From Pseudomonadota bacterium (GTDB lineage Bacteria > Pseudomonadota > Alphaproteobacteria > Acetobacterales > Acetobacteraceae), in NCBI GenBank assembly GCA_021801255.1, contig JAJYYH010000020.1, positions 1 through 64,000 on the forward strand: a DNA stretch of 64,000 nt, written 5' to 3'. Positions 6,084 through 18,825 of this stretch are shown one piece after another. Numbering within the stretch: position 1 is the stretch's first letter; each line of letters begins with the position of its first letter. Under the pieces are notes generated by a model that worked only from the letters and a program-made list of their open reading frames with translations, was not told the DNA's origin and searched no databases. The translations under genes were made by a program, and so were the position numbers.

Positions 6084-9000
6084 TTACCGTCCCATGGGAT
6101 CGCGGAGCACGACGTAGATCGCTGGGATCACCAGCACGGTGAGCAGGGTCGAGGAGGCAAGGCCGAACAGCAGCGAGATGGCGAGCCCCTGGAAGATCGG
6201 GTCGGGCAGGATGGTGGCCGCGCCGATCATCGCCGAGAGCGCGGTGAGCAGGATCGGTTTGAAGCGGATGGCGCCGGCGTCGAGCAGCACCTCGCGCAGC
6301 GGCTTCTCGCCGCGGCCGTGGCGGATGAAATCGACGAGGAGGATCGAGTTGCGCACGATGATGCCGGCGAGCGCGATGAAACCGATCATCGAGGTCGCGG
6401 TGAAGGGCGCGTCGAGCAGCCAGTGGCCGGGCAGGATGCCGATCAGCGTGAGCGGGATCGGCGTCAGGATCATCAGCGGGATCTTGAAGCTCTGGAATTG
6501 CGCGACGACGAGGATGTAGATGCCGAGAATGGCGACGCCGAAGGCCGCCCCCATGTCGCGGAACGTCACATAGGTGATTTCCCATTCGCCGTCCCAGAGC
6601 AGGGTGGGGTGGGCCTCGTCGTCGGGCTGGCCGCGAAAGCGGATCTCCGGCCGGCCGAGCTTGCCCCAATCGTGCCTTGCGATCAGCTTATCGACCGCCA
6701 GCATGCCGTAGATCGGTGACTCGAAACTGCCGGCAAGCTCGCCGGTTACCATATCGGCGAAATGGCCGTCGCGGCGAAACAGCGTGCGCGAGCCGGTTTC
6801 TCGGGTAACCTTGACCACCTGGCCGAGTTCGACGACACCACGCGCGCCGGGCAGCGTGTTGGCCGGCACCGGGGTCGCCGCCAGCCGCTCGTTCCAGCTC
6901 AGGTCGCGCTTGGGCAGGCCGATCGCGATTTCGATCGGCAGCCGCTCCTCGCCACGATAGGAGTAGCCGACCGGCACGCCGCCGAACAGCGCCTGGATCG
7001 AGTCATAAACATCACTTTGCTCGACGCGGAAATAGTCGAGTTCCGGCTGGTCGATGGCGATATGCAGCTGCGGCTCGCGATGACCGTAGGAATCATCGAC
7101 ATCGACGATGAAGGGGACGGACTTGAAGATGGATTTCACCTCCTCGGCAACCGCGCGTCGGGTTTTCACGTCAGGGCCATAGATCTCGGCGAGCAATGTC
7201 GCCAGCACCGGCGGTCCGGGCGGCATTTCCACCACTTTCAGCACAGCCCCTTGCGGGAGTTGCAGCGCCGCGAGCTTGCGGCGGAGATCGAGGGCGATGG
7301 CGTGGCTGGCCCGCTGGCGTTCCGCTTTGGGCGCAAGCACAATATGCAGCCCGCCCAGCCAGGGTTCCTCGCGCGCGTAATAATGGCGCACCAGACCGTT
7401 GAAATCATAGGGCTCGGGGGTGCCGGCATAGGTCTGGATCGCCTTGACTTCGGGCAGCGTCTCGACGATGCGCGCCGCCGCCGCGAGGCGCTGCTCGGTC
7501 TCCTCGAGGCTGGCGCCGGCGGGCAGATCGAGCAGCACGCTCAGTTCCGATTTATTATCGACCGGCAGCAGCTTGACGGTGACGTTCTCGGTATAGAAAA
7601 GTCCGCAGACGGCGACGGTGGCGAAGCCCACCAGCAGCAGAAAACTCCAGGCGAGCGGGCGTGAGCGCAGCAACGGCCCGGCGATATGGCGATAGAGGCG
7701 CCCGAGGACGCCCTCGCCATGGCCATGGGCGCTGCCAGCGGGGAGCGACGCTGCCTTGCTCCGCGCCTTTTTCGCCCCCGGCGCGAGTTTGAGCATCAGC
7801 CACGGCGCCACCACCATGGCGACGAAGAAGGAAAACAGCATCGCGGCGGAGGCGTTCGCCGGGATCGGCGCCATGTAGGGCCCCATTAGCCCGGAGACGA
7901 ACAGCATCGGCAACAGCGCGGTCACTACCGTGAGGGTTGCGACCACGGTCGGGTTGCCGACCTCGGCCACCCCCTCGATCGCCGCCTGGATGCGCGGCCG
8001 ACCGTCGGCCATCGCCCAGTGCCGCGCGATATTCTCGACCACGACGATGGCGTCATCAACGAGAATGCCGATCGCGAAAATCAGCGCGAACAGTGACACC
8101 CGGTTGATGGTGTAGCCCATCATCTCGGCGGAAAAGAGCGTCAACAGGATCGTCGTCGGAATGACGACGAGCGTTACCAGCCCCTCGCGCCAGCCGACCG
8201 CGAAGGAGATCAAGACGACGATCGAGACGGTGGCGAGCGCGAGATGAAAGAGCAGCTCGTTGGCCTTTTCGTTCGCGGTGACGCCGTAATCGCGCGTCAC
8301 CTCGACCGCGATGTCGCTCGGAATGAGCTGGCCCTCAAGGCTTTTCACCCGCGCCACGATGGCGTTCGCCACCACCACCGCATTGGCCCCCGAGCGTTTG
8401 GCGAGGGCGAGGCTCACCGCCGGCGTCTCGCGCCAGCCGCCCTTCTTGTCGGGGAGCAGATTGAAAACGTGGTTTTCCTCGACCGAACCACCGACGACCA
8501 CCTGCGCGACATCATGGACATAGACCGGCCTACCGTCGCGCGTGGTAATCAGCAGCAAGCCGATATCGGGGATGCCCAGCATGGTCTGGCCCGCCGTCAC
8601 CGTGCGCATCGCCCCGAGATCGCGCACGGAGCCCGCAACGAAGGAGCGGTTGGCGTCGCGCACCTTGGCGATGAGCTGTTGCAAGGTAACGCCATAGAGC
8701 GAGAGTTTCTCGGGATCGGGCTCGACGCGGATCTGCTCGGGATCGGTGCCGGCGATATAGCTCAGGCCGATATTCTCGGTTTTAATCATCTCCGATTGCA
8801 GCTTGCTCGCGAGCTGATAGAGATCGGTCTGCCGCCAGCGCCCCTCGGCGCCGGGCTTGGGCGAGAGGGTCAAAACGACGGTCGCGACGTCGTTGATGCC
8901 GTGCCCGACGATCAAGGGCTGCGGAATACCGATCGGGATGCGATCAAGATTGGCGCGGACCTTGTCGTTGACCCGGAGCACGGCATCATCCTCGCCGGTG

Positions 9001-9308
9001 CCGACGACGAAGCGCGCGGTCACCGTGGCGCGGTCATCCTCTGTCTCGCTATAGACATGCTCGACGCCAGGGATTGCCTTGACGATGGTCTCAAGCGGCT
9101 TGGTGACGAGTTCCGCGACATCATCGGCGCGCAGCCCGTTGGCCGAGACCATGATATCGACCAGGGGAACGTGGATTTGCGGGTCTTCCTCGCGCGGGAT
9201 GGTGAGGAGTGCGATCAGCCCGGCGATGAGGGCGGCGAGAAGGAAAAGCGGCGTCAGCGGCGAGCGGATCGTGGCCCGCGTCAGGTGGCCGGAAATCCCG
9301 AGATTCAT
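6084..9308 (-). CDS. RND-family efflux pump, inner-membrane permease
   Basis: The 1074 residues match an HAE1/AcrB-type permease. A first membrane helix at about 19-36 is followed by the porter start (VDIMVSANGLRADDVAELV), and GILVDDAIVVVENIARHW marks TM4. The adjacent Asp418-Asp419 correspond to the proton-relay aspartates of AcrB. The second half repeats the helix/porter pattern. It pumps an unknown substrate out of the cytoplasmic membrane or periplasm with the HlyD-type adaptor encoded immediately upstream (ATGA overlap); no outer-membrane channel gene is nearby. It is third in an operon led by the BigR/SqrR-like regulator, which suggests induction by sulfide or related stress. Confidence 0.92.
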   Translation of the reverse strand: MNLGISGHLTRATIRSPLTPLFLLAALIAGLIALLTIPREEDPQIHVPLVDIMVSANGLRADDVAELVTKPLETIVKAIPGVEHVYSETEDDRATVTARFVVGTGEDDAVLRVNDKVRANLDRIPIGIPQPLIVGHGINDVATVVLTLSPKPGAEGRWRQTDLYQLASKLQSEMIKTENIGLSYIAGTDPEQIRVEPDPEKLSLYGVTLQQLIAKVRDANRSFVAGSVRDLGAMRTVTAGQTMLGIPDIGLLLITTRDGRPVYVHDVAQVVVGGSVEENHVFNLLPDKKGGWRETPAVSLALAKRSGANAVVVANAIVARVKSLEGQLIPSDIAVEVTRDYGVTANEKANELLFHLALATVSIVVLISFAVGWREGLVTLVVIPTTILLTLFSAEMMGYTINRVSLFALIFAIGILVDDAIVVVENIARHWAMADGRPRIQAAIEGVAEVGNPTVVATLTVVTALLPMLFVSGLMGPYMAPIPANASAAMLFSFFVAMVVAPWLMLKLAPGAKKARSKAASLPAGSAHGHGEGVLGRLYRHIAGPLLRSRPLAWSFLLLVGFATVAVCGLFYTENVTVKLLPVDNKSELSVLLDLPAGASLEETEQRLAAAARIVETLPEVKAIQTYAGTPEPYDFNGLVRHYYAREEPWLGGLHIVLAPKAERQRASHAIALDLRRKLAALQLPQGAVLKVVEMPPGPPVLATLLAEIYGPDVKTRRAVAEEVKSIFKSVPFIVDVDDSYGHREPQLHIAIDQPELDYFRVEQSDVYDSIQALFGGVPVGYSYRGEERLPIEIAIGLPKRDLSWNERLAATPVPANTLPGARGVVELGQVVKVTRETGSRTLFRRDGHFADMVTGELAGSFESPIYGMLAVDKLIARHDWGKLGRPEIRFRGQPDDEAHPTLLWDGEWEITYVTFRDMGAAFGVAILGIYILVVAQFQSFKIPLMILTPIPLTLIGILPGHWLLDAPFTATSMIGFIALAGIIVRNSILLVDFIRHGRGEKPLREVLLDAGAIRFKPILLTALSAMIGAATILPDPIFQGLAISLLFGLASSTLLTVLVIPAIYVVLRDPMGR

Positions 9309-10300
9309 GGCGCCACCAGAACGTCGCCAGGAGCGATACCGGAGAGCACCTCGATGCCGTCGGGCATCTCGGGCGTTGGAAAATCGCGGCCACGCTGGAT
9401 CGGTATCGCAACGACCCCTCCGGCCAGGTCACGGCGATGGACATAGTCGAGGCCGAAACGCGTCTCGATCAGATGGGCGGGTATGACGAAGGTGTGGCGA
9501 TCACCGGCGGGGATCCACACCTCGATGCGCTGGCCGACAAAATAGTCGCCGAGCCCTTTCACCTCCGCGTCGGCGACCACGTTGCCATCCGCGATGCGCG
9601 GATAGACCAGGGTGACAGTGCCGAATTGCGCCCCCTCGGCGCCAAGATCGCGCCCGTTCACCCGCACCGTCTGGCCGGCCTTGAGAAAGCCGGTGGCACG
9701 CTCGGGCACGCGCAGACGCAGCACGAATTTCCGTTCCGCAACCGTTGCGATCGAATCGCCCGGCATGACCACCGAGCCGATGGTGAGCGGCACGGTGAGG
9801 ACCCGCCCCGCCGTTGGGGCAAAGACCTGCCCCTCGACCATCTGCTGCGCGGCGAGCGCGCGCTCGGCTTCGCGCGCCTTGAGCGAGCTTGCCGCGACCT
9901 GCGCCGCGGTTCCCGCCTGGTCGAGTTGCTGGCGCGAAACGGCGCCCCCCTTGGCCAGCGCCTGGGCGCGGCCGAGATCGGTCTCGGCCTGGGCGAGTTG
10001 GGATTTGAGCCCGGTGATCTCGGCATCGAGCGCCTGGATGCGCAGCCCGAGCTTCTGGTCGGCAATGACGCCGATCACCTGCCCCGCCGTCACCTCATCG
10101 CCCTCGCGGACGTTGAGTTCGGTGATGGTGCCGCCGATGCGCGCCCGCGCCGGCACCACGTTGCGGCTCTCGACAGTCGCGAAAACCGCTTTTTCATCGA
10201 CGACATTGGCCGGCTGGACGACGAACTCGGCCGCAAGGAGGGCAGGCGTGGCGACCAGAAGCCAGGCCACCAGCCAGGCGGGAAGAAGAGAAACACGCAT
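9305..10300 (-). CDS. Periplasmic adaptor (HlyD/MFP) of the RND efflux system
   Basis: 331 residues. The start is placed at the ATG 10298-10300, which begins a clear signal peptide (MRVSLLPAWLVAWLL... ending near ALLAAEF). The open frame further upstream to 10726 overlaps the regulator gene and is rejected. A lipoyl half-motif (GTITELNVREGDEVTAGQVIGVI) is followed by a helical hairpin with heptad-like content (LDAEITGLKSQLAQAE) and then a second lipoyl half and beta-barrel. It would bridge the RND permease to an outer-membrane channel. Its stop codon overlaps the RND start, so the two are coupled, and it lies 62 bases after the ArsR-family regulator gene. Confidence 0.9.
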   Translation of the reverse strand: MRVSLLPAWLVAWLLVATPALLAAEFVVQPANVVDEKAVFATVESRNVVPARARIGGTITELNVREGDEVTAGQVIGVIADQKLGLRIQALDAEITGLKSQLAQAETDLGRAQALAKGGAVSRQQLDQAGTAAQVAASSLKAREAERALAAQQMVEGQVFAPTAGRVLTVPLTIGSVVMPGDSIATVAERKFVLRLRVPERATGFLKAGQTVRVNGRDLGAEGAQFGTVTLVYPRIADGNVVADAEVKGLGDYFVGQRIEVWIPAGDRHTFVIPAHLIETRFGLDYVHRRDLAGGVVAIPIQRGRDFPTPEMPDGIEVLSGIAPGDVLVAP

Positions 10301-10362: not shown

Positions 10363-10689
10363 TCAGGCCATGACCCGCCGCGCCGCACTCGGTTGCGGAC
10401 AATAGATGGAAAATAGCGTGTCCAACACCTCCCGCGCCGGCCCACTTGCGAGCGCATACCAGATCGTCTGCCCTTCGCGTGTGGCACTCACCAAACCATC
10501 GCGGCGCAACAGCGCGAGGTGCTGGGAGACCGTCGAATCGCGCAGACCCAGTGCCGTGGCAAGCTCGCCCACCGAGCAGGGGGCCTCGGCGAGATGGCAG
10601 AGGATGAGCAGCCGGTGGCGGCTGGAAAGCGCCTTGAGCAGGGCGCTCGCCTGATCGGCGGCTTGGTGCATGGCATCGATGTTTTTCAT
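10363..10689 (-). CDS. ArsR-family repressor of the BigR/SqrR (persulfide-sensing) type
   Basis: A 108-residue winged-helix protein; VGELATALGLRDSTVSQHLALLRRDGLV (40-67) is the helix-turn-helix. It has Cys31 (in LLILC), Cys38 and Cys97 (in FSIYC). The Cys31-Cys97 spacing of 66 equals the spacing of the redox pair in BigR (42/108) and SqrR (41/107), which form a disulfide or polysulfide bridge and release DNA when (per)sulfide is present. No metal-binding ArsR motif (ELCVCDL) is present. It is divergent from sulfide:quinone oxidoreductase, with a dyad operator four bases before its own ATG, and it heads the adaptor-RND operon. Sulfide-responsive control of both sides is the natural inference. 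Confidence 0.9.
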   Translation of the reverse strand: MKNIDAMHQAADQASALLKALSSRHRLLILCHLAEAPCSVGELATALGLRDSTVSQHLALLRRDGLVSATREGQTIWYALASGPAREVLDTLFSIYCPQPSAARRVMA

Positions 10690-10726
10690 GCTTGCGTATA
10701 TACGATGATACGCATATATATGTCAA
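10690..10726. promoter_or_regulatory. Divergent overlapping promoters and dyad operator between the BigR-like gene and sqr
   Basis: A perfect inverted repeat, TGCGTAT (10693-10699) - 8 bases - ATACGCA (10708-10714), lies in the 60-base divergent region. On the plus strand TTGCGT (10692-10697), 17 bases, TATATA (10715-10720) forms a promoter for sqr, and the dyad exactly occupies its spacer. On the minus strand TTGACA (10726-10721), 18 bases, TATATA (10702-10697) forms a promoter for the regulator, starting transcription at about 10690, next to its ATG at 10689. A repressor on the dyad would block both promoters. The assignment is from pattern only. Confidence 0.7.
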
Positions 10727-10749
10727 ACCAAGTGTGGAGGAGAAACGTC

Positions 10750-12027
10750 ATGGCTGAAATCGTGGTTCTGGGAGCTGGGCTCGGCGGCACATTGATGGCC
10801 ATCGAGGCGCTGGCGCAAGTGCGCAAGGGTGATCGGGTGAGTCTGATTAGCCAGGGGTCGAAATATCATTTCGTGCCGTCGAACCCGTGGGTCGCCGTCG
10901 GCTGGCGCGCCCGGCCGGACATCGAGATCGACCTCACGCCGATCATGCGGCGCAAGGGGATCGGGTTTTACGACCAGGGCGCCAAGCGGGTCGATCCCGG
11001 CGCCAACCAGGTCGAACTCAACGACGGCGAAATCATCCCCTATGATTATCTGGTGATCGCGACCGGCCCCGATCTCGCCTTCGACGAAATCCCCGGCCTC
11101 GGCCCGGAGGGGCATACCCAATCGATCTGCCATGTCGATCACGCCGAGCGGGCCCGCGTCGCCTTCGAGACTTTCTGCCGCAACCCCGGCCCCATCGTGG
11201 TCGGCGCCGTACAGGGCGCCTCGTGCTATGGCCCGGCCTACGAATTCGCTTTCATTCTCGACACCGAACTGCGCAAGCGCAAGATCCGCGACCGCGTGCC
11301 GATGACCTATGTCACCGCCGAGCCCTATATCGGCCATCTCGGCCTCGATGGCGTGGGGGATACCAAGGGCTTGCTGGAGAGCGAATTCCGCGATCACCAC
11401 ATCAAATGGATTACCAACGCGCGGGTCAAGACGATCGAGGCGGAAAAGATGACCGTCGAGGAAGTCAACCCTGACGGCACCATCAAGCAAACGCACGAGC
11501 TGCCTTTCCGCTATTCCATGATGCTGCCCGGCTTCCGCGGTGTCGCGGCGATTCGCGGATTGGAAAAACTGGTGAACCCGCGCGGCTTCGTGCTGATCGA
11601 CGAATTTCAGCGCAACCCGACCTACCGCAACGTGTTCGGTATCGGCGTCGCGGTCGCCATTCCGCCCACCGGGCCGACGCCGGTGCCAGTCGGCGTGCCA
11701 AAAACCGGTTTCATGATCGAATCCATGGTGACCGCGACGGCGATGAATATCGGCGCGCTGCTCCATGGTCGCGAACCCACCACGCGGGCCACCTGGAACG
11801 CGATCTGCCTCGCCGATTTCGGCGATACCGGGGTCGCTTTCATCGCCAAGCCACAAATTCCGCCGCGCAACACCAATTGGGCGGCGAAAGGGGCCTGGGT
11901 GCATCTTGCAAAAGTCGGCTTCGAGAAATACTTCATGCGCAAGATGCGCGGCGGCAACAGCGAGCCTTTCTATGAGCGGTTTCTCATGAAGCAGCTCGAC
12001 CTGAAGAAACTCAAGGAACCCGTGTAA
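10750..12027 (+). CDS. sqr: Sulfide:quinone oxidoreductase
   Basis: 425 residues from the ATG at 10750, with GGAGG at 10736-10740. It is a FAD protein of the disulfide oxidoreductase fold: VVLGAGLGGT (5-14) is the dinucleotide loop and YLVIATGPDLAFD (100-112) the second. Cys127, Cys159 (in VQGASCYGP) and Cys353 match the three redox cysteines of the Acidithiobacillus ferrooxidans enzyme (128/160/356). The C-terminal amphipathic region (LAKVGFEKYFMRKMRGG) fits peripheral attachment to the inner membrane. It oxidises sulfide to polysulfide and reduces ubiquinone, for detoxification or energy. It is followed by a DUF2892 protein and is divergent from the BigR-like repressor. Confidence 0.95.
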   Translation: MAEIVVLGAGLGGTLMAIEALAQVRKGDRVSLISQGSKYHFVPSNPWVAVGWRARPDIEIDLTPIMRRKGIGFYDQGAKRVDPGANQVELNDGEIIPYDYLVIATGPDLAFDEIPGLGPEGHTQSICHVDHAERARVAFETFCRNPGPIVVGAVQGASCYGPAYEFAFILDTELRKRKIRDRVPMTYVTAEPYIGHLGLDGVGDTKGLLESEFRDHHIKWITNARVKTIEAEKMTVEEVNPDGTIKQTHELPFRYSMMLPGFRGVAAIRGLEKLVNPRGFVLIDEFQRNPTYRNVFGIGVAVAIPPTGPTPVPVGVPKTGFMIESMVTATAMNIGALLHGREPTTRATWNAICLADFGDTGVAFIAKPQIPPRNTNWAAKGAWVHLAKVGFEKYFMRKMRGGNSEPFYERFLMKQLDLKKLKEPV

Positions 12028-12058
12028 TCCCCACCTCCTGACAGGAAAGACACCAGTT

Positions 12059-12262
12059 ATGACCCTCGATCGCGCTGTTCTACGTTTCGCCGGCCTCATG
12101 GTACTGCTGAGCGCTCTGCTGACCTGGCTGGTCAGCCCCTATTTCCTGCTGTTCACTGCCTTCATCGGGCTGAACCTCCTGCAATCGAGTTTTACCGGCT
12201 TCTGCCCGGCGGCCGCGGTCTTCCGCCTGCTCGGCGTGCGGACGGGCTGCGCCTTCGAGTAA
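12059..12262 (+). CDS. DUF2892 (YgaP-type) small membrane protein
   Basis: 67 residues, with two hydrophobic helices at about 8-27 and 28-46, followed by GFCP (47-50) and a second cysteine at 64 (RTGC). This is the YgaP transmembrane-domain family (DUF2892), often fused to or encoded beside rhodanese or sulfur-oxidation enzymes. It starts 31 bases after the sqr stop codon with an AGGAAAG Shine-Dalgarno, so it should be cotranscribed with sqr. The role may be sulfane-sulfur handling at the membrane; no enzymatic residue beyond the two cysteines can be named. Confidence 0.85.
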   Translation: MTLDRAVLRFAGLMVLLSALLTWLVSPYFLLFTAFIGLNLLQSSFTGFCPAAAVFRLLGVRTGCAFE

Positions 12263-12289: not shown

Positions 12290-12319
12290 CGGCCGGGGCG
12301 CGTCCCCGGCCGTTTTTTC
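12290..12319 (+). terminator. Rho-independent terminator after sqr-DUF2892
   Basis: A 9-bp GC-rich perfect stem (12290-12298 with 12304-12312), a 5-base loop and a run of six T follow the DUF2892 stop codon by 27 bases. It separates the sulfide operon from the pentapeptide-repeat gene. Confidence 0.9.
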
Positions 12320-12357: not shown

Positions 12358-13128
12358 ATGGTTGACTGGCCAAGAAACACCTTGCCCATGCTCTCGGTCC
12401 TCGCCATGCTCTCCCCCTTCGCGGCGCGGACGCAATCGGCGCATCTTTCAACGGCCGAGGTGAAAGCGCGCGCAGCAGCGGGCCAGAAAACCATGCTCGC
12501 GGGACAGGATATGAGCGGCGATGATCTCACCGGCCTCGATCTCAGCGGCGCCGATCTGCACGGCGCGGATTTGCGAAAAGCCAATCTGCACGGCGTCAGG
12601 CTGGTGCACGCCGATCTCTCGGGCGCCAATCTCGAAGGCGCCGATCTCACCTTCGCCTGGATCATGAATGCCAATTTTTCCCACGCCAATCTGCGCGGTG
12701 CCGTGTTGCAGACCATGGTAACATCGCAAGCGATGGAAAACGCCCCGGCCGAGGCAGCAAATTTTTCCGGCGCCGATTTTTCTGGGGCCACCATGACGGT
12801 GCATTTCAGTTTCGATGACCTGCACGGGGCGAATTTCTCCCATGCCCACATGGCCCCCGATATGCGCAATCAGTCGATGGGCCTGCTCCGCACCGAATTC
12901 TCCAGCGCCAATCTCGACAGCGCCAATTTCGAATATGCCGAACTCGGCCATGTCCTGTTCCGTTTTGCTCGGCTCAACGGCGCCAGTTTCCGCAACGCCC
13001 AGCTCGAAGGCGCCGATTTCACCGGCGCCTATCTGAATGGCGCCGATTTTTCCGGCGCCGATACGCGCGGCGCCGATTTCGAGGCCGCGACGCTGACGAA
13101 CGCGCGCGGCCTCGCGCCTACTCGCTGA
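12358..13128 (+). CDS. Pentapeptide-repeat protein, probably exported
   Basis: 256 residues. The N-terminus (about 1-29) has a moderately hydrophobic stretch ending near ARTQSA, consistent with a weak signal peptide. From about residue 49 nearly the whole chain is A(D/N)LxG-type pentapeptide units (for example DLSGADLHGADLRKANLHG), interrupted around 115-160 by a non-repeat loop containing MAPDMRNQSMG. Such repeats fold as a right-handed quadrilateral beta-helix. Some cytoplasmic members (Qnr, MfpA) mimic DNA and shield gyrase, but most have no known function. It stands alone between the sqr terminator and a secreted phosphoesterase gene. Confidence 0.85.
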   Translation: MVDWPRNTLPMLSVLAMLSPFAARTQSAHLSTAEVKARAAAGQKTMLAGQDMSGDDLTGLDLSGADLHGADLRKANLHGVRLVHADLSGANLEGADLTFAWIMNANFSHANLRGAVLQTMVTSQAMENAPAEAANFSGADFSGATMTVHFSFDDLHGANFSHAHMAPDMRNQSMGLLRTEFSSANLDSANFEYAELGHVLFRFARLNGASFRNAQLEGADFTGAYLNGADFSGADTRGADFEAATLTNARGLAPTR

Positions 13129-13230: not shown

Positions 13231-15180
13231 ATGCCCGTGCGTGACGCGATTTTTTCCCTCTCCCTGGCGTTTGCCGCGCTCGTCTCTGGCCATGCCGCCT
13301 CGGCCGCGGCCGAGGCGCCGGCGCTGCTCGTGCCACAGCCCGACCCGGCGCCGGCCATCCGCCCCTATCTCACGAGCCCGACGAGCGCAACGGTTGCGGC
13401 CGAGGCGCTGCGGGCGCGGATAAAATACGTTTTTATCCTGTATCAGGAAAACCGCTCCTTCGACGCCTATTTCGGCGGTTTTCCCGGCGCGCGCGGGCTC
13501 TATTCGGCGCCCGCTGCGATGACGCCGGGTTTTTTCCAGCCGATCGTCAAGCCGGACGGCGGCATGGCGACGATCCACCCCTTCCGCCTCGGCCCGGCTG
13601 ACTTCGCCGCCGATCTCGACGACATGGACCACAGCCACCCGATATTGGTGGAGAAAATGCACATCTCGGAAGGAAGCGCCGCGATGGACCGCTTCGCGCT
13701 CGCCGAGGAGATGAAATACGTCAAGCCGGGGGAAAAACCCTCGCGCCAGGCCTTCCAGCATGGCGCGCTGCCAATGGCCCATATCGACTGCGACACCATC
13801 CCGCTCCTCTGGAATTACGCCAGCCGCTTCGTGCTGTTCGATGCGTTTTTCCAACACACCATCGCCCCCTCGGCGCCCAACGCCATCGCGCTCATCGCCG
13901 GCCAGAGCGGCGAGACGCAATGGCTGAAACATCCCGACCAGGCCACGCTCGCCGCCTCCTCGGCGGGGGGCTCCTATGCCAGCCGGGGCGAGCCGATGGT
14001 GGCCAACCCGCCGCCCTTCTGGGGCTCAGGCGCCGATCGGACGAGCGGCACGCCGGGCAATCCGCGCTATAAGACGGCCTCCCAGATCAACCAGACCTAT
14101 GCCAGCCTGCCGCTGACATTCGCGGGGAAAAACCTGGCCGCGCTGGTCAAGTCCGACCGCGACCCCGGCGGCGATCTCGCCGATATCACCGGCGATATCC
14201 CGGTGATCGCCGCTTCCGGGCGGGCGCCGCTTGCCTGGGGGTGGTATCAGGAAGGCTACGATCACGAGCCCTCCGACCCGGCCGATGCGCCGGCGGGGGG
14301 CTCGCATCTCTCCTATGTCTGGCACCATAACGCGGCGCAATATTTCGGCTATGTCGCCAACAACCCGGAAATGGCGGCGCACCTGCACGGACTCGGCGAT
14401 TTTTTCGCCGATCTCGAGGCAAAGCGCCTGCCCCAAGCGGGCGGCGTCTTCTACATTCGTGGCGGCTTTCGCAACATCGCCGGCCTGCTCCCCGCCGACC
14501 CCGATCCGGCCGTGCGAAAAAAATTCCAGGGCGATGACGACCACCCCGGCTATTCCGATTCCGAAATTAGCGAGGCCTTGCTCGGACGCGAGGTCAATGC
14601 CATCGCCGAGAGCCCCTATTGGGCGGAAAGCGCGATCATTATCACCTTCGATGAGGGTGGCGGCGCCTATGACCATGTGCCACCGCGCCGGCTCGAAACC
14701 GGCCCCGACGGCAAGGCGCTGGCGCGCGGGCCGCGCATTCCGCTGATCGTGATCTCGCCCTATGCCCGCGCCCATGTCGTCTCGCACGAAGAGGGTGATC
14801 ACAACGAGGTGATCAAATTCCTCGACCATCTCTACCGCCTGCCCCCGCTCGCGACGCTTCCCGAGGAAGCGGCGGCGCGCGCGGCGGGGCGGGCACGGCT
14901 CGGCCAGGACTGGCTCGGCCCCAAGGATGCGGTGGTACCCAATGAGGGCGATTTGTTGAGCGCCTTCGACCCCGGCCGGCTTGCCGGCACGACGCCGCCG
15001 CTGCCACCCGAGTACGCCCTGACGCCGCCCGAGATCCTCGCTAGGCTGCCACTTTACGGCGGGCACGGGTGTCAGGCGATCGGTGTTGTCCCGGTCGATC
15101 TCGCGCGTGGCATCGACAATTCCCCGCCCGTGGGTTTCAATCCGCGTCCGGCAACCAACCCCACGGGAGAAGAGCCATGA
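13231..15180 (+). CDS. Secreted phosphoesterase family protein (AcpA / phospholipase C-like)
   Basis: 649 residues. A signal peptide (about 1-26, ending ASAAAEA) is followed by the phosphoesterase-family domain (PF04185 type). The ENRSFDAYFGGFPG motif near residue 71 carries the metal-ligand Glu-Asn pair, and later IITFDEGGGAYDHVPPR supplies Asp/Glu ligands, with a downstream HEEGDHNEVIKF segment. Members are periplasmic or secreted acid phosphatases or phospholipases C acting on phosphate mono- or diesters such as phosphatidylcholine. The stop codon overlaps the ATG of the following SDR gene (ATGA). Substrate preference cannot be told from sequence alone. Confidence 0.88.
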   Translation: MPVRDAIFSLSLAFAALVSGHAASAAAEAPALLVPQPDPAPAIRPYLTSPTSATVAAEALRARIKYVFILYQENRSFDAYFGGFPGARGLYSAPAAMTPGFFQPIVKPDGGMATIHPFRLGPADFAADLDDMDHSHPILVEKMHISEGSAAMDRFALAEEMKYVKPGEKPSRQAFQHGALPMAHIDCDTIPLLWNYASRFVLFDAFFQHTIAPSAPNAIALIAGQSGETQWLKHPDQATLAASSAGGSYASRGEPMVANPPPFWGSGADRTSGTPGNPRYKTASQINQTYASLPLTFAGKNLAALVKSDRDPGGDLADITGDIPVIAASGRAPLAWGWYQEGYDHEPSDPADAPAGGSHLSYVWHHNAAQYFGYVANNPEMAAHLHGLGDFFADLEAKRLPQAGGVFYIRGGFRNIAGLLPADPDPAVRKKFQGDDDHPGYSDSEISEALLGREVNAIAESPYWAESAIIITFDEGGGAYDHVPPRRLETGPDGKALARGPRIPLIVISPYARAHVVSHEEGDHNEVIKFLDHLYRLPPLATLPEEAAARAAGRARLGQDWLGPKDAVVPNEGDLLSAFDPGRLAGTTPPLPPEYALTPPEILARLPLYGGHGCQAIGVVPVDLARGIDNSPPVGFNPRPATNPTGEEP

Positions 15181-15889: not shown

Positions 15890-17437
15890 ATGGGCGGGGT
15901 GGCACAACGCCTGATGGGCGGGGTGCGTTCGCTGCGGGCGCGGCTGGTGTTGCTGTGGCTGCTGTCGCTGGCAGCGGCGGTGGTGGTCGCGGCGCTGATC
16001 CTCGCCCTCGACCGCGCCTCCACCGCCGCCCGCACCGCCGAGGCCGAGGTCACGCTGGCGCGCGCCGCCGAACGCCTCGCCGGAGCCTATGATTTCTATA
16101 CCGCGGGACTAGCCCGGGCGCCCGAGGACGCGCACTTCATGCACGGGCTCGGCACGGTGGTGCGCGCCGCGCTCGCCGGGGTCGAGGGGGTCGAGGGTGG
16201 GATCTGGCAGGAACAGCGCGGCTCGCTCGCTTATGCTTTCCCGACCTATGAGGGAAGCGGCGTCAAGAGCGATCTCCCGGCGGCGGAAAGCGCCACCATC
16301 GCGGCGATCAACGCCGAGGCGCGGCAAGAGCGGGCGCCGGTTGCCCGGCGAGAGCGCGGCAAGCGGCAGACCCTTTTGCTCTATGCCCGCCCGCTGACCG
16401 CCGCCGCGGCGATCCCGGGGGCGAGCGTCTGGGTGATGACCCGGGTGGAGGCGAACCCGGCGGTCAGCCGGCTGCAGGCCGCGCTCGCCGCGCTGCTGGT
16501 GCTGGTTCTGCTGCTCTCGCTCTGGCTCTGGCGGCTGGCGCGCGGCTGGGGGCGGCATATCGGCGCCATCGAGGCCGCCCTGCGTGCCCATGACCTCGCC
16601 GATCTGCCAGCGCTGCCGGCCACCGGCGAGCGCGATCTCGACCGCATTCTCGCCGCCCTCAACGAGGCTAGCGACCGCCTCGCGCAGGCCCGACGAGAGG
16701 CGGAGACGCTCACCCGCAAGGCCGCCGAAGCCGAACGTCTGGCGGCCTTGGGGCGGGTCGCGGCCGGTATCGCCCATGAAATCCGCAATCCACTGGCGGC
16801 GATGCGTCTCAAGGCGGAAAACGCGCTCGCCGCCGCGCCGGCGCCAGAGACCGCGCGGGCACGGCAGGCGCTGGCCGCGATCCTCGTCCAAATTGCCCGG
16901 CTCGATCATCTCGTCGGCGAAATCCTCAGCCTCACGCAGCGGCCAACGCCGCGCCCCGAGCCGGTCGATGTCTCTCGTCTGCTGGCCGCCCTGGTCGCCG
17001 AGCATGGCGACCTTGCCGCGCGCGCAGGCGTGCGTCTTTCGCATCAAGGGCCGGCGCTGACGGCGGTGTTCGATCCGGCGCTGACCCGGCGGGCCTTGGC
17101 GGCGCTCATCGACAATGCCCTCCGCCACACGCCGCCGGGTGGGAAGGTCAGCTTGCGGGCCGATCGGGAGGGGGGAACCCTCGTCATCCGCATTGCCGAT
17201 ACCGGGCCCGGCATTGCCGAGGATCTCCGCGCCCGGCTTTTCGAGCCCTTCGTCACCGGCCGCCCCGACGGCACCGGCCTCGGCCTCGCCATCGCCCGTG
17301 AGATGGCGGCGGCGCAAGCCGGATCGCTCCACCTCCTCGACCCTGGAGGGTATATAGATGTCGGGGAAACCCGCAGCGGGGCGGTCTTCGCGCTCGTCCT
17401 CGCCTGGCAGGATCCTGGATCATGGCCCTCATCCTGA
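15890..17437 (+). CDS. Membrane sensor histidine kinase
   Basis: 515 residues. A first membrane helix at about 16-42 is followed by a periplasmic sensor stretch (about 43-180), a second helix (about 197-215), a HAMP-like linker, then HisKA with the phospho-acceptor His296 in AAGIAHEIRNPLA. The HATPase domain has the N box IDNALRHTPPGGK and G boxes DTGPGIAEDL and GTGLGLAIA. It overlaps the start of the sigma-54-type response regulator by 16 bases, so the two form a cognate pair. The sensed signal is unknown; the periplasmic region matches no domain I can name. Confidence 0.93.
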   Translation: MGGVAQRLMGGVRSLRARLVLLWLLSLAAAVVVAALILALDRASTAARTAEAEVTLARAAERLAGAYDFYTAGLARAPEDAHFMHGLGTVVRAALAGVEGVEGGIWQEQRGSLAYAFPTYEGSGVKSDLPAAESATIAAINAEARQERAPVARRERGKRQTLLLYARPLTAAAAIPGASVWVMTRVEANPAVSRLQAALAALLVLVLLLSLWLWRLARGWGRHIGAIEAALRAHDLADLPALPATGERDLDRILAALNEASDRLAQARREAETLTRKAAEAERLAALGRVAAGIAHEIRNPLAAMRLKAENALAAAPAPETARARQALAAILVQIARLDHLVGEILSLTQRPTPRPEPVDVSRLLAALVAEHGDLAARAGVRLSHQGPALTAVFDPALTRRALAALIDNALRHTPPGGKVSLRADREGGTLVIRIADTGPGIAEDLRARLFEPFVTGRPDGTGLGLAIAREMAAAQAGSLHLLDPGGYIDVGETRSGAVFALVLAWQDPGSWPSS

Positions 17438-18825
17438 TCGTCGATGACGATGCCGGCTTGCGCGAGAGCCTCGCCGAGACGATGCGCGATCTTGGCCATG
17501 AGCCGCGGCTGGCCGCAACCGGCGAGGAGGCGCTGGCGATTTTGGCGGCCGAACACTGCGCGGCGGTGCTGCTCGATCTCCGCATGCCGGGGATGGACGG
17601 GATCGAGGTGCTGCGCCGCATCCGCGCGCGGCCGGCGCCGCCGCCGGTTGCCGTGCTCACCGCCGTCCCGACCAGCGCCAATACCATCGAGGCGATGCGG
17701 CTTGGCGCCGTCGATCATCTCGCCAAACCGATCGGCCGCGCCGATCTCGCTGCCTTGCTTGCCCGCATGCTCGCGATCACGGTGCCAGCCCCGGCGCCGG
17801 CGCCGGCGGTGGAAGAGTTCATCGGCGCCAGCGCGGCGATGCGCGAGGTGCAGAAGACCATCGGCCGGCTCGCCGATCAGGAGACGACGGTGCTGATCAC
17901 CGGCGAGACCGGAACCGGCAAGGAGGTCGTCGCGCGCGCGATCCACCGCCATGGCCGGCGCAGCCGATTTCCGTTCATCGCCATCAACTGCGCCGCGATC
18001 CCCGCCGAATTGCTCGAAAGCGAGTTGTTCGGCCATGTCCGCGGCGCCTTCACCGGCGCCCACGCCGACCGCGAGGGCGCGTTTCGCGCCGCTCAAGGCG
18101 GCACCATTCTGCTCGATGAAATCGGCGACATGGCGCCGCTATTGCAAGCCAAGCTGTTGCGGGTGCTGGAAACCCGCGAAGCAACACCGCTCGGCGGACG
18201 TGCGACGCCGCTCGACGTTCGTATCCTCGCTGCGACCCACCGCGATCTCCGCGCCGAGATCACGCAAGGGCGGTTTCGCGAGGATCTCTATTACCGCATC
18301 GGCGTCGTGCCGATCGCCTTGCCGCCGCTCCGCGAGCGGCTCGCCGATATCGTGCCGCTGGCCGAGCATTTTCTCGCCCGTAGCGGCGGCGGCAAGCAGC
18401 TGGAGCCGGCGGCGGCGGCGCGTTTGCTCGCCCATCCCTGGCCCGGCAATGTGCGTGAATTGCGCAACGCCCTGGAGCGGGCGGCGGTGTTGACCCCGGG
18501 GCCGGTGATCCCGGCCGCCACCCTCGATTTTCTTGACACGCCCCACGAAGCCGGCGGCAAGGACCAGCTCTCCGAAAGCATCGCCGCGGGCACCGACCTC
18601 CCCGGCGCCATCGCCCGGCTGGAGGCGGCAATGATCCAGAACGCGCTGGCTGCGACGAACCACAACCGCGTCGAGGCGGCGCGCCGTCTCGGCATTCATC
18701 GCCAGCTGCTTTACGTCAAACTGCGCCGCTATGGCCTCGGCGAGACTGTGGCACGGGGCGCCGAAATGTCCGATAAACGGACAAAGGATGACCGATCAGC
18801 GGATGATTCTTCGCCCTGCCCTTAA
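17422..18825 (+). CDS. NtrC-family sigma-54-dependent response regulator
   Basis: 467 residues with the full three-domain layout. The receiver (about 1-120) has the acidic pair Asp8-Asp9 and phospho-acceptor Asp52. The AAA+ domain has Walker A GETGTGKE (161-168), the sigma-54 contact loop GAFTGA (208-213) and Walker B ILLDEIGD. A Fis-type helix-turn-helix lies at the C-terminus (NHNRVEAARRLGIHRQLLYVKLRRYGL region). It should activate sigma-54 promoters when phosphorylated by the overlapping kinase. Targets are unknown; the secreted protein gene just downstream is a possible one. Confidence 0.95.
   Translation: MALILIVDDDAGLRESLAETMRDLGHEPRLAATGEEALAILAAEHCAAVLLDLRMPGMDGIEVLRRIRARPAPPPVAVLTAVPTSANTIEAMRLGAVDHLAKPIGRADLAALLARMLAITVPAPAPAPAVEEFIGASAAMREVQKTIGRLADQETTVLITGETGTGKEVVARAIHRHGRRSRFPFIAINCAAIPAELLESELFGHVRGAFTGAHADREGAFRAAQGGTILLDEIGDMAPLLQAKLLRVLETREATPLGGRATPLDVRILAATHRDLRAEITQGRFREDLYYRIGVVPIALPPLRERLADIVPLAEHFLARSGGGKQLEPAAAARLLAHPWPGNVRELRNALERAAVLTPGPVIPAATLDFLDTPHEAGGKDQLSESIAAGTDLPGAIARLEAAMIQNALAATNHNRVEAARRLGIHRQLLYVKLRRYGLGETVARGAEMSDKRTKDDRSADDSSPCP

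Follow-up and report, generated by a model that had tools for sequence, protein, structure and literature searches.

The gene cluster analyzed here lies within a stretch of 64,000 nt (the window; positions 1 to 64,000 of contig JAJYYH010000020.1, assembly GCA_021801255.1) from a member of the Acetobacteraceae, the draft genome of which totals 3.2 Mb over 67 contigs. A gene for an ArsR-family regulator of 108 aa (10363-10689, reverse strand) is followed on its own strand, after 62 bp, by genes for a resistance-nodulation-division (RND) periplasmic adaptor (membrane fusion protein, MFP; 331 aa, 9305-10300) and an RND efflux permease (1074 aa, 6084-9308), the start of which overlaps the MFP stop (9305-9308). 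Facing these, on the forward strand, are sqr, encoding a 425 aa sulfide:quinone oxidoreductase (SQR) of the Acidithiobacillus ferrooxidans type (10750-12027), and a gene for a DUF2892 / YgaP-like transmembrane protein of 67 aa (12059-12262). A predicted operator, TATATNCG-N6-CGNATATA (10697-10718, read on the reverse strand), lies between regulator and sqr and agrees with the palindrome motif at 14/14 positions. That the protein encoded beside sqr is a reactive-sulfur-responsive repressor has good support from its homology, its conserved cysteines, its predicted fold and the conserved operator, and it probably controls both divergent units, sqr-DUF2892 and regulator-MFP-RND, from this one site.

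Regulator, sqr-DUF2892 and pump proteins

Cysteines of the regulator were located at positions 31, 38 and 97 of the translated frame. A sequence-only reading of the window had placed Cys31 and Cys97 66 residues apart and equated them with the redox pairs of BigR and SqrR; the spacing was confirmed from the open frame, and residues 6-98 aligned without gaps to residues 17-109 of the SqrR chain, with both cysteines on the SqrR pair. BigR (3pqj) matched residues 6-101 across a stretch of equal length. The redox pairs are numbered 41/107 in SqrR and 42/108 in BigR. Among 71 aligned homologues, Cys31 was cysteine in 71/71 and Cys97 in 70/71 (T in L043), and both were cysteine in 50/50 members of the window's clade (regulator identity ≥55%, L041 excluded). 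The candidate persulfide-sensing pair is therefore not a chance occurrence. The extra Cys38 was cysteine in 7/71 rows (the window, three same-genus loci, Acidicaldus and two others).

A structural model of the regulator was predicted from 10 sequences (mean pLDDT 90.2). Cys31 was placed within the second helix (residues 24-35) and Cys97 one residue beyond the last long helix (83-96), in agreement with the alpha2/alpha5 cysteine pair of the SqrR/BigR/YgaV/HlyU group. In a Foldseek search with this model, ranks 1-16 were all HlyU, SqrR, BigR and YgaV chains, with HlyU and SqrR at the top (SqrR E = 5e-9), BigR from rank 9 and YgaV at rank 15, so that the predicted winged-helix ArsR fold is nearest to known reactive-sulfur sensors. 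Sequence scores against solved proteins were 77 bits (HlyU), 71.7 bits (SqrR) and 71 bits (YgaV), versus 48.3 bits (NmtR), 46.1 bits (Rv1994c, which we take to be a metal sensor) and 32.5 bits (CzrA) for solved metal sensors. The broad ArsR/SmtB model was passed (84.6 vs. 55 bits), and the NCBI BigR model NF040642 gave 76.8 bits, under its curated cut-off of 155. A maximum likelihood tree (71 rows, 117 columns, midpoint root, L033 and L040 excluded) separated 52 rows, including that of the window, from SqrR and HlyU by a branch with 100/99 support; 44 of the 52 were RND-linked, and many internal forks were left open. Of the earlier label of a BigR/SqrR-type regulator, membership of the reactive-sulfur-sensing ArsR group stands on homology, cysteines and predicted fold. 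Orthology is not supported: the regulator lies across the 100/99 branch and does not group with SqrR, and its score is far under the BigR cut-off. Judged by its sequence, it belongs to this ArsR group in a clade of its own, apart from SqrR.

The SQR scored 491 bits over 422 residues against the A. ferrooxidans enzyme. Cys127, Cys159 and Cys353, which the sequence-only reading had listed as kept, align to Cys128, Cys160 and Cys356 of the solved A. ferrooxidans structure, and across relatives Cys127 and Cys159 were cysteine in 35/35 rows with a residue there and Cys353 in 36/36; the three cysteines and whole-length similarity place the protein in the A. ferrooxidans type. A Shine-Dalgarno-like GGAGGAG was read at 10736-10742 (forward strand), ahead of sqr. 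In one relative (L105:8225-9321) the SQR gene is split into two pieces, with about 55 residues absent between them.

The DUF2892 assignment made earlier held, as the protein passed the Pfam YgaP-like transmembrane domain PF11127 (44.1 bits, cut-off 25.3); the match to the YgaP membrane domain itself was weak (E = 0.005). Thiocyanate export was proposed for that domain (PMC4730233). Cys49, in an FCP motif, may be functional because it was cysteine in 48/49 rows; Cys64 was cysteine in 28/49. A hairpin of 9 G-C pairs with a T tail, resembling an intrinsic terminator, lies 3' of the DUF2892 gene (12290-12312, forward strand) and may mark the end of the sqr-DUF2892 unit; the terminator scan returned 2 such sites in 3.5 kb, against a shuffle mean of 2.4. 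Directly after the unit, the window encodes a pentapeptide-repeat protein (12358-13128; such open reading frames (ORFs) formed a 3-locus group in the neighbor census described below), then a phosphoesterase-family protein resembling acid phosphatase or phospholipase C (13231-15180), and after it a sensor kinase and response regulator (15890-18825), by reading an NtrB/NtrC-type pair.

For the pump, the MFP start codon (ATG at 10300) was picked by the analyst, and the protein passed TIGR01730 (116.5 bits, cut-off 94.9). The permease passed Pfam PF00873 (458 vs. 28 bits), carries the Asp-Asp pair of transmembrane helix 4 (TM4) in the motif LVDDAIVVVEN, and fell below the cut-offs of the named RND subfamilies TIGR00914 (CusA/CzcA; 223/701 bits), TIGR00915 (259/940) and NF033617 (395/1250). 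In TM10 the motif GIIVRNSILLVDF stands near residue 985. Its Arg was found in 55/56 rows with a residue there; the lone Lys row (L144) has as its match a distant RND protein of 24% identity. AcrB-type pumps have Lys at this position, which we take to be Lys940 of AcrB. The nearest solved relatives of the permease were mostly named multidrug efflux pumps. Zero-valent sulfur or persulfide can be offered as a guess at the substrate.

Gene order and predicted operator in relatives

Two hundred genomes of the family were searched, and 92 contained a regulator match at E ≤1e-15, distant homologues included. Surroundings were taken for 56 regulator matches, for the paralogue in the window's own genome and for 20 places picked for RND or SQR matches; 11/55 loci from named genomes were used. 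Neighborhood counts were made over 49 clade loci (L040 and L041 excluded). The MFP gene adjoined the regulator in 44/45 loci with room for it, lay downstream on the regulator's strand in 43/44, and was followed by RND in 41/43, the remaining two (L102, L144) being at contig ends. A DUF2892 gene was found within 6.5 kb of the regulator in 45/47 loci and SQR in 30/46, and orientation to the regulator was divergent for 44/45 and 30/30 of these, respectively. One locus, L038, is ordered differently, with MFP-RND pointing away from the regulator and DUF2892 behind it. The sequence-only reading had confined a sulfide-inducible module to 10363-12262. Regulator, sqr and DUF2892 are there as claimed; the interval is too narrow, because the MFP and RND genes (6084-10300) keep the regulator's company more steadily than SQR, which is optional.

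Of the 49 clade loci, 31 gave a rhodanese and 21 a thioredoxin by tblastn; one example of each was run against Pfam. In 28 loci such ORFs were placed between the regulator and MFP genes, and in 19 between the DUF2892 gene and either SQR or the regulator. The window and three same-genus loci gave neither by tblastn. The fullest module is DUF2892-thioredoxin-SQR facing regulator-rhodanese-MFP-RND, and the window has a shortened form, since both genes are present in relatives and not here. Their presence is consistent with sulfane-sulfur handling. Neighboring ORFs of ≥80 aa in the clade loci were also grouped in a census; of its 22 largest groups, none that represents a family outside the module reached more than 5 loci, and one group of 30 loci, judged by its position, runs antisense to sqr. 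Two relatives encode a protein with a metallo-beta-lactamase fold close to the module (L125:4195-5112), which on inspection by eye looks similar to a persulfide dioxygenase.

Co-occurrence was scored over the 200 genomes, with thresholds of ≥56% identity for a whole regulator match (42 genomes) and E ≤1e-300 for RND (52 genomes). Both were present in 39 genomes, the regulator only in 3, RND only in 13 and neither in 145 (Fisher 1e-26, shared ancestry ignored). In all three regulator-only genomes the contig ends near the regulator or cuts the RND gene. For the clade regulator and SQR (33 genomes), 28 had both, 14 the regulator only, 5 SQR only and 153 neither (Fisher 7e-19, ancestry likewise ignored).

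Regions upstream of the regulator were compared between 48 clade rows (with ≥60 nt upstream) and 16 rows of <50% identity; the regulators L033, L039, L040, L041, L043, L113 and L136, of the 71, were in neither set. Start codons of the relatives' regulators were picked by script (nearest the window's start, ATG preferred). The palindrome scored ≥11/14 in 44/48 clade upstreams vs. 1/16 of the others, and ≥12/14 in 34/48. From the 44 rows scoring ≥11 the clade consensus was nGnTTGACnATATATTCGnAnnTnCGTATATACGCAAGT. No palindrome site of ≥12/14 was found elsewhere in the 49 clade loci (630,391 bases), and within the 64 kb window the next-best matches after the 14/14 site were two of 11/14. The in-clade score is partly circular, since the motif was derived from those sequences. 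More independent evidence comes from that absence elsewhere and from Acidicaldus (G093, one 9,010-base contig of which is the exact reverse complement of Acidicaldus organivorans contig L033): there, the sqr-DUF2892 (L165) and regulator-MFP-RND (L152) units are on separate contigs, and a 13/14 site is present at both promoters. Loci with a pump unit facing DUF2892 or SQR and no regulator between them (L149, L161) had no site of ≥11, and loci with SQR and no clade regulator (L160, L162, L163) had none at the sqr promoter, with a distant site in L160 and L162; both samples are small.

In the window's own genome, an extended palindrome without mismatch occurred only at the window site. With ≤2 mismatches the same scan returned the site, its shifted overlap and one 2-mismatch match on contig 22, against 1 match in the reversed control, and a wider regulon in this genome was rejected on this result. 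Because the extended pattern demands more at one end than the 14-position motif does, it overlooked the 12/14 and 11/14 sites around a second regulator of the genome (L088, below).

Two promoters were read by eye over the operator. The predicted regulator promoter (10697-10726, reverse strand) has TTGACA at 10726-10721, an 18 nt spacer and TATATA at 10702-10697; the predicted sqr promoter (10692-10720, forward strand), which overlaps both the former and the operator, has TTGCGT at 10692-10697, a 17 nt spacer and TATATA at 10715-10720. The palindrome was flanked by TTGAC in 33/44 rows and by GCAA in 37/44 (both in 29). These flanks can be read as the -35 boxes of two divergent promoters that overlap, with TTGACA serving the regulator and TTGCGT serving sqr. 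As in the window, the palindrome ends exactly 7 nt before the regulator start codon in 31/48 clade loci, and none of the 31 has a Shine-Dalgarno-like four-mer within the last 18 nt; this spacing and the missing Shine-Dalgarno-like sequence suggest a leaderless regulator mRNA, conserved in the clade. A 12/14 site was also found in another locus (L157:4503-4524), some 140 bases ahead of the MFP gene of the 61% sister RND group; no recognized regulator match was found in that locus.

Proposed mechanism and alternative explanations

From the gene content, cysteine conservation, predicted fold, operator conservation and linkage observed here, we infer the following scheme of redox chemistry, binding to DNA, derepression and transport. 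Reduced regulator would bind the palindrome at 10697-10718, filling the spacers of the two overlapping promoters and silencing sqr-DUF2892 and regulator-MFP-RND together. As sulfide is oxidized and persulfides accumulate, a polysulfide would bridge Cys31 and Cys97, as in characterized family members; the bridged regulator would release the DNA, and both units would be expressed. SQR would then oxidize sulfide, the DUF2892 protein would act in the membrane, and the MFP-RND pump would export a sulfur-related product or an accompanying toxicant. An ordinary-looking sulfide detoxification set thus appears to include an exporter, because one shared switch seems to control both. For characterized members of the group a tetrasulfide bridge was reported (PMC12423496, PMC10509353), and for X. 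fastidiosa BigR a disulfide (PMC9774250). With both bridge types in the literature, the earlier wording that such regulators form a disulfide or polysulfide bridge was fair.

Several observations weigh against common control by a clade-specific regulator. SQR was missing from 16/46 clade loci, so that pump and sqr are separable. In L111, the one locus with room for MFP but lacking it, the clade regulator has no linked DUF2892 or SQR gene either, and that genome has an RND gene on another contig. RND without a clade regulator match was found in 13 genomes, eight of which hold a sister-group RND of 61-65%; two of these eight (L153, L159) have a diverged regulator (~41%) in the same gene order. 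G093 does have the regulator, interrupted by a run of N, and G004 (L149) has rhodanese, MFP, RND and DUF2892 and lacks the regulator. Within the window's tree group, L117, L119 and L039 have no RND link (L117 and L119, from the 16 distant comparison rows, sit within the clade on long branches), and the RND-linked label needs 8 changes on the tree. As for the operator, the motif was scored on the sequences that gave it, the upstream region of L034 reaches just 8/14, and a strict sigma-70 scan found no promoter in the region, as TATATA lacks the required final T. A scan of 16 other loci at ≥11 found 12/14 sites in L088, L157 and L160, and an 11/14 site precedes the own-genome paralogue; chance matches and cross-talk therefore exist.

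The strongest alternative leaves the control of sqr and pump in place and concerns what is pumped: the MFP-RND pump could be a general multidrug or toxicant exporter, with sulfane sulfur only its induction signal. We give this somewhat less than even chances. The multidrug pumps among the nearest solved relatives, the retention of RND in loci without SQR, and the reported de-repression of MexAB-OprM by sulfane sulfur via MexR (PMC12918742) speak for it; against it, genes for rhodanese, thioredoxin and DUF2892 are repeatedly found near the pump, and in 44/45 loci the adaptor goes with the regulator clade. A more specific export role, with regulator, DUF2892 and MFP-RND as a dedicated zero-valent-sulfur export system, is speculative and rather unlikely. 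In such a system SQR would make membrane polysulfide, and the distinct-subfamily RND permease would expel hydrophobic sulfur chains or persulfides from the periplasm; the persulfide being removed would itself be the inducer.

It is improbable that the regulator autoregulates the pump operon only, with sqr-DUF2892 driven independently. The same operator does precede the regulator in clade loci that lack SQR, but it overlaps both deduced promoters here, and the unlinked sqr promoter of Acidicaldus has its own 13/14 site. A classical ArsR/SmtB metal or metalloid sensor, with Cys38 and Cys31 or Cys97 binding metal, is very improbable: the broad ArsR/SmtB model was passed and Cys38 is present within the genus, but the regulator has no C-x-C motif, and this reading was rejected because solved metal sensors (NmtR, Rv1994c, CzrA) score under SqrR and HlyU and Cys38 is scarce (7/71).

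Another ArsR regulator with both cysteines is encoded in the genome (48% identity to that of the window; L088:4899-11030; G000 contig 4, ~54.9-61.0 kb), with DsrE-, HdrC-, HdrB-, LipS1- and geranylgeranyl-reductase-like neighbors, which in our reading form an sHdr-like cluster. Operator-like sites were found before this regulator (11/14) and between it and the DsrE gene (12/14). Since it groups with SqrR in the tree, the organism seems to carry two reactive-sulfur sensors of this group. That this second regulator is the true controller of sqr is highly improbable: its cysteines, SqrR grouping, neighbors and flanking sites would suit such a role, but it is located on a different contig, and strong operators track the clade of the window's regulator.

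Relation to known systems

A link between RND pumps and sulfane-sulfur-responsive ArsR regulators is not new in kind, as it is stated in PMC12423496 (2025): such regulators seem to have RND pumps among their targets, alongside sqr, pdo, rhodaneses and transporters. In section 2.1 of that paper the RND cases are given with no gene order or operator, unlike the module described here. Neither this gene order nor the operator was found described in the literature searched, which comprised passages of main texts. In the portions available, PMC4725956 and PMC2621215 mention RND, sqr and ArsR-kind genes in separate contexts only, and the Acidiphilium papers PMC7677001 and PMC8147356 mention sqr and ars genes and not RND.

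In the window, sulfide oxidation and an RND exporter are joined through an apparent single operator, and the module occurs in many genomes of the family and a few outside it. One 30-bp switch and one pump are direct targets for asking about the export of reactive or elemental sulfur. The arrangement hints that genes now annotated as RND drug efflux may in some cases serve in sulfur stress. If zero-valent-sulfur export were true, it would provide a molecular answer to how sulfur oxidizers place elemental sulfur outside the cell.

SqrR of Rhodobacter capsulatus is linked to sqr. The window's regulator shares its cysteine pair and fold, and differs from it in adjoining MFP-RND and DUF2892 and in its separate position in the tree (100/99). 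Published SqrR sites are ATTC-N8-GAAT (PMC9774250); the predicted operator has the same geometry with different half-sites, here ATTC or ATGC-N8-GTAT. YgaV of Escherichia coli was reported to bind near the -35/-10 of its own promoter (PMC9774250). The ygaVP operon (YgaV repressor; YgaP, a rhodanese with a transmembrane domain) resembles the window in its regulator group and YgaP-like DUF2892, and resembles the window's relatives in having a rhodanese, there as a separate gene; in the window, by contrast, DUF2892 is a protein by itself, accompanied by SQR and an RND pump, and there is no rhodanese. BigR of Xylella and Acinetobacter has the same cysteine pair and fold, whereas in A. baumannii it controls a yeeE-yedE-pdo2 operon (PMC7315123). 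In Pseudomonas aeruginosa an RND pump, MexAB-OprM, is likewise de-repressed by sulfane sulfur (PMC12918742), but MexR is a MarR-family sensor (PMC9495516) and the available account of it includes no sqr (PMC12918742). For the SQR, the nearest known counterpart is the Acidithiobacillus ferrooxidans enzyme, at 491 bits over 422 residues with all three cysteines in common.

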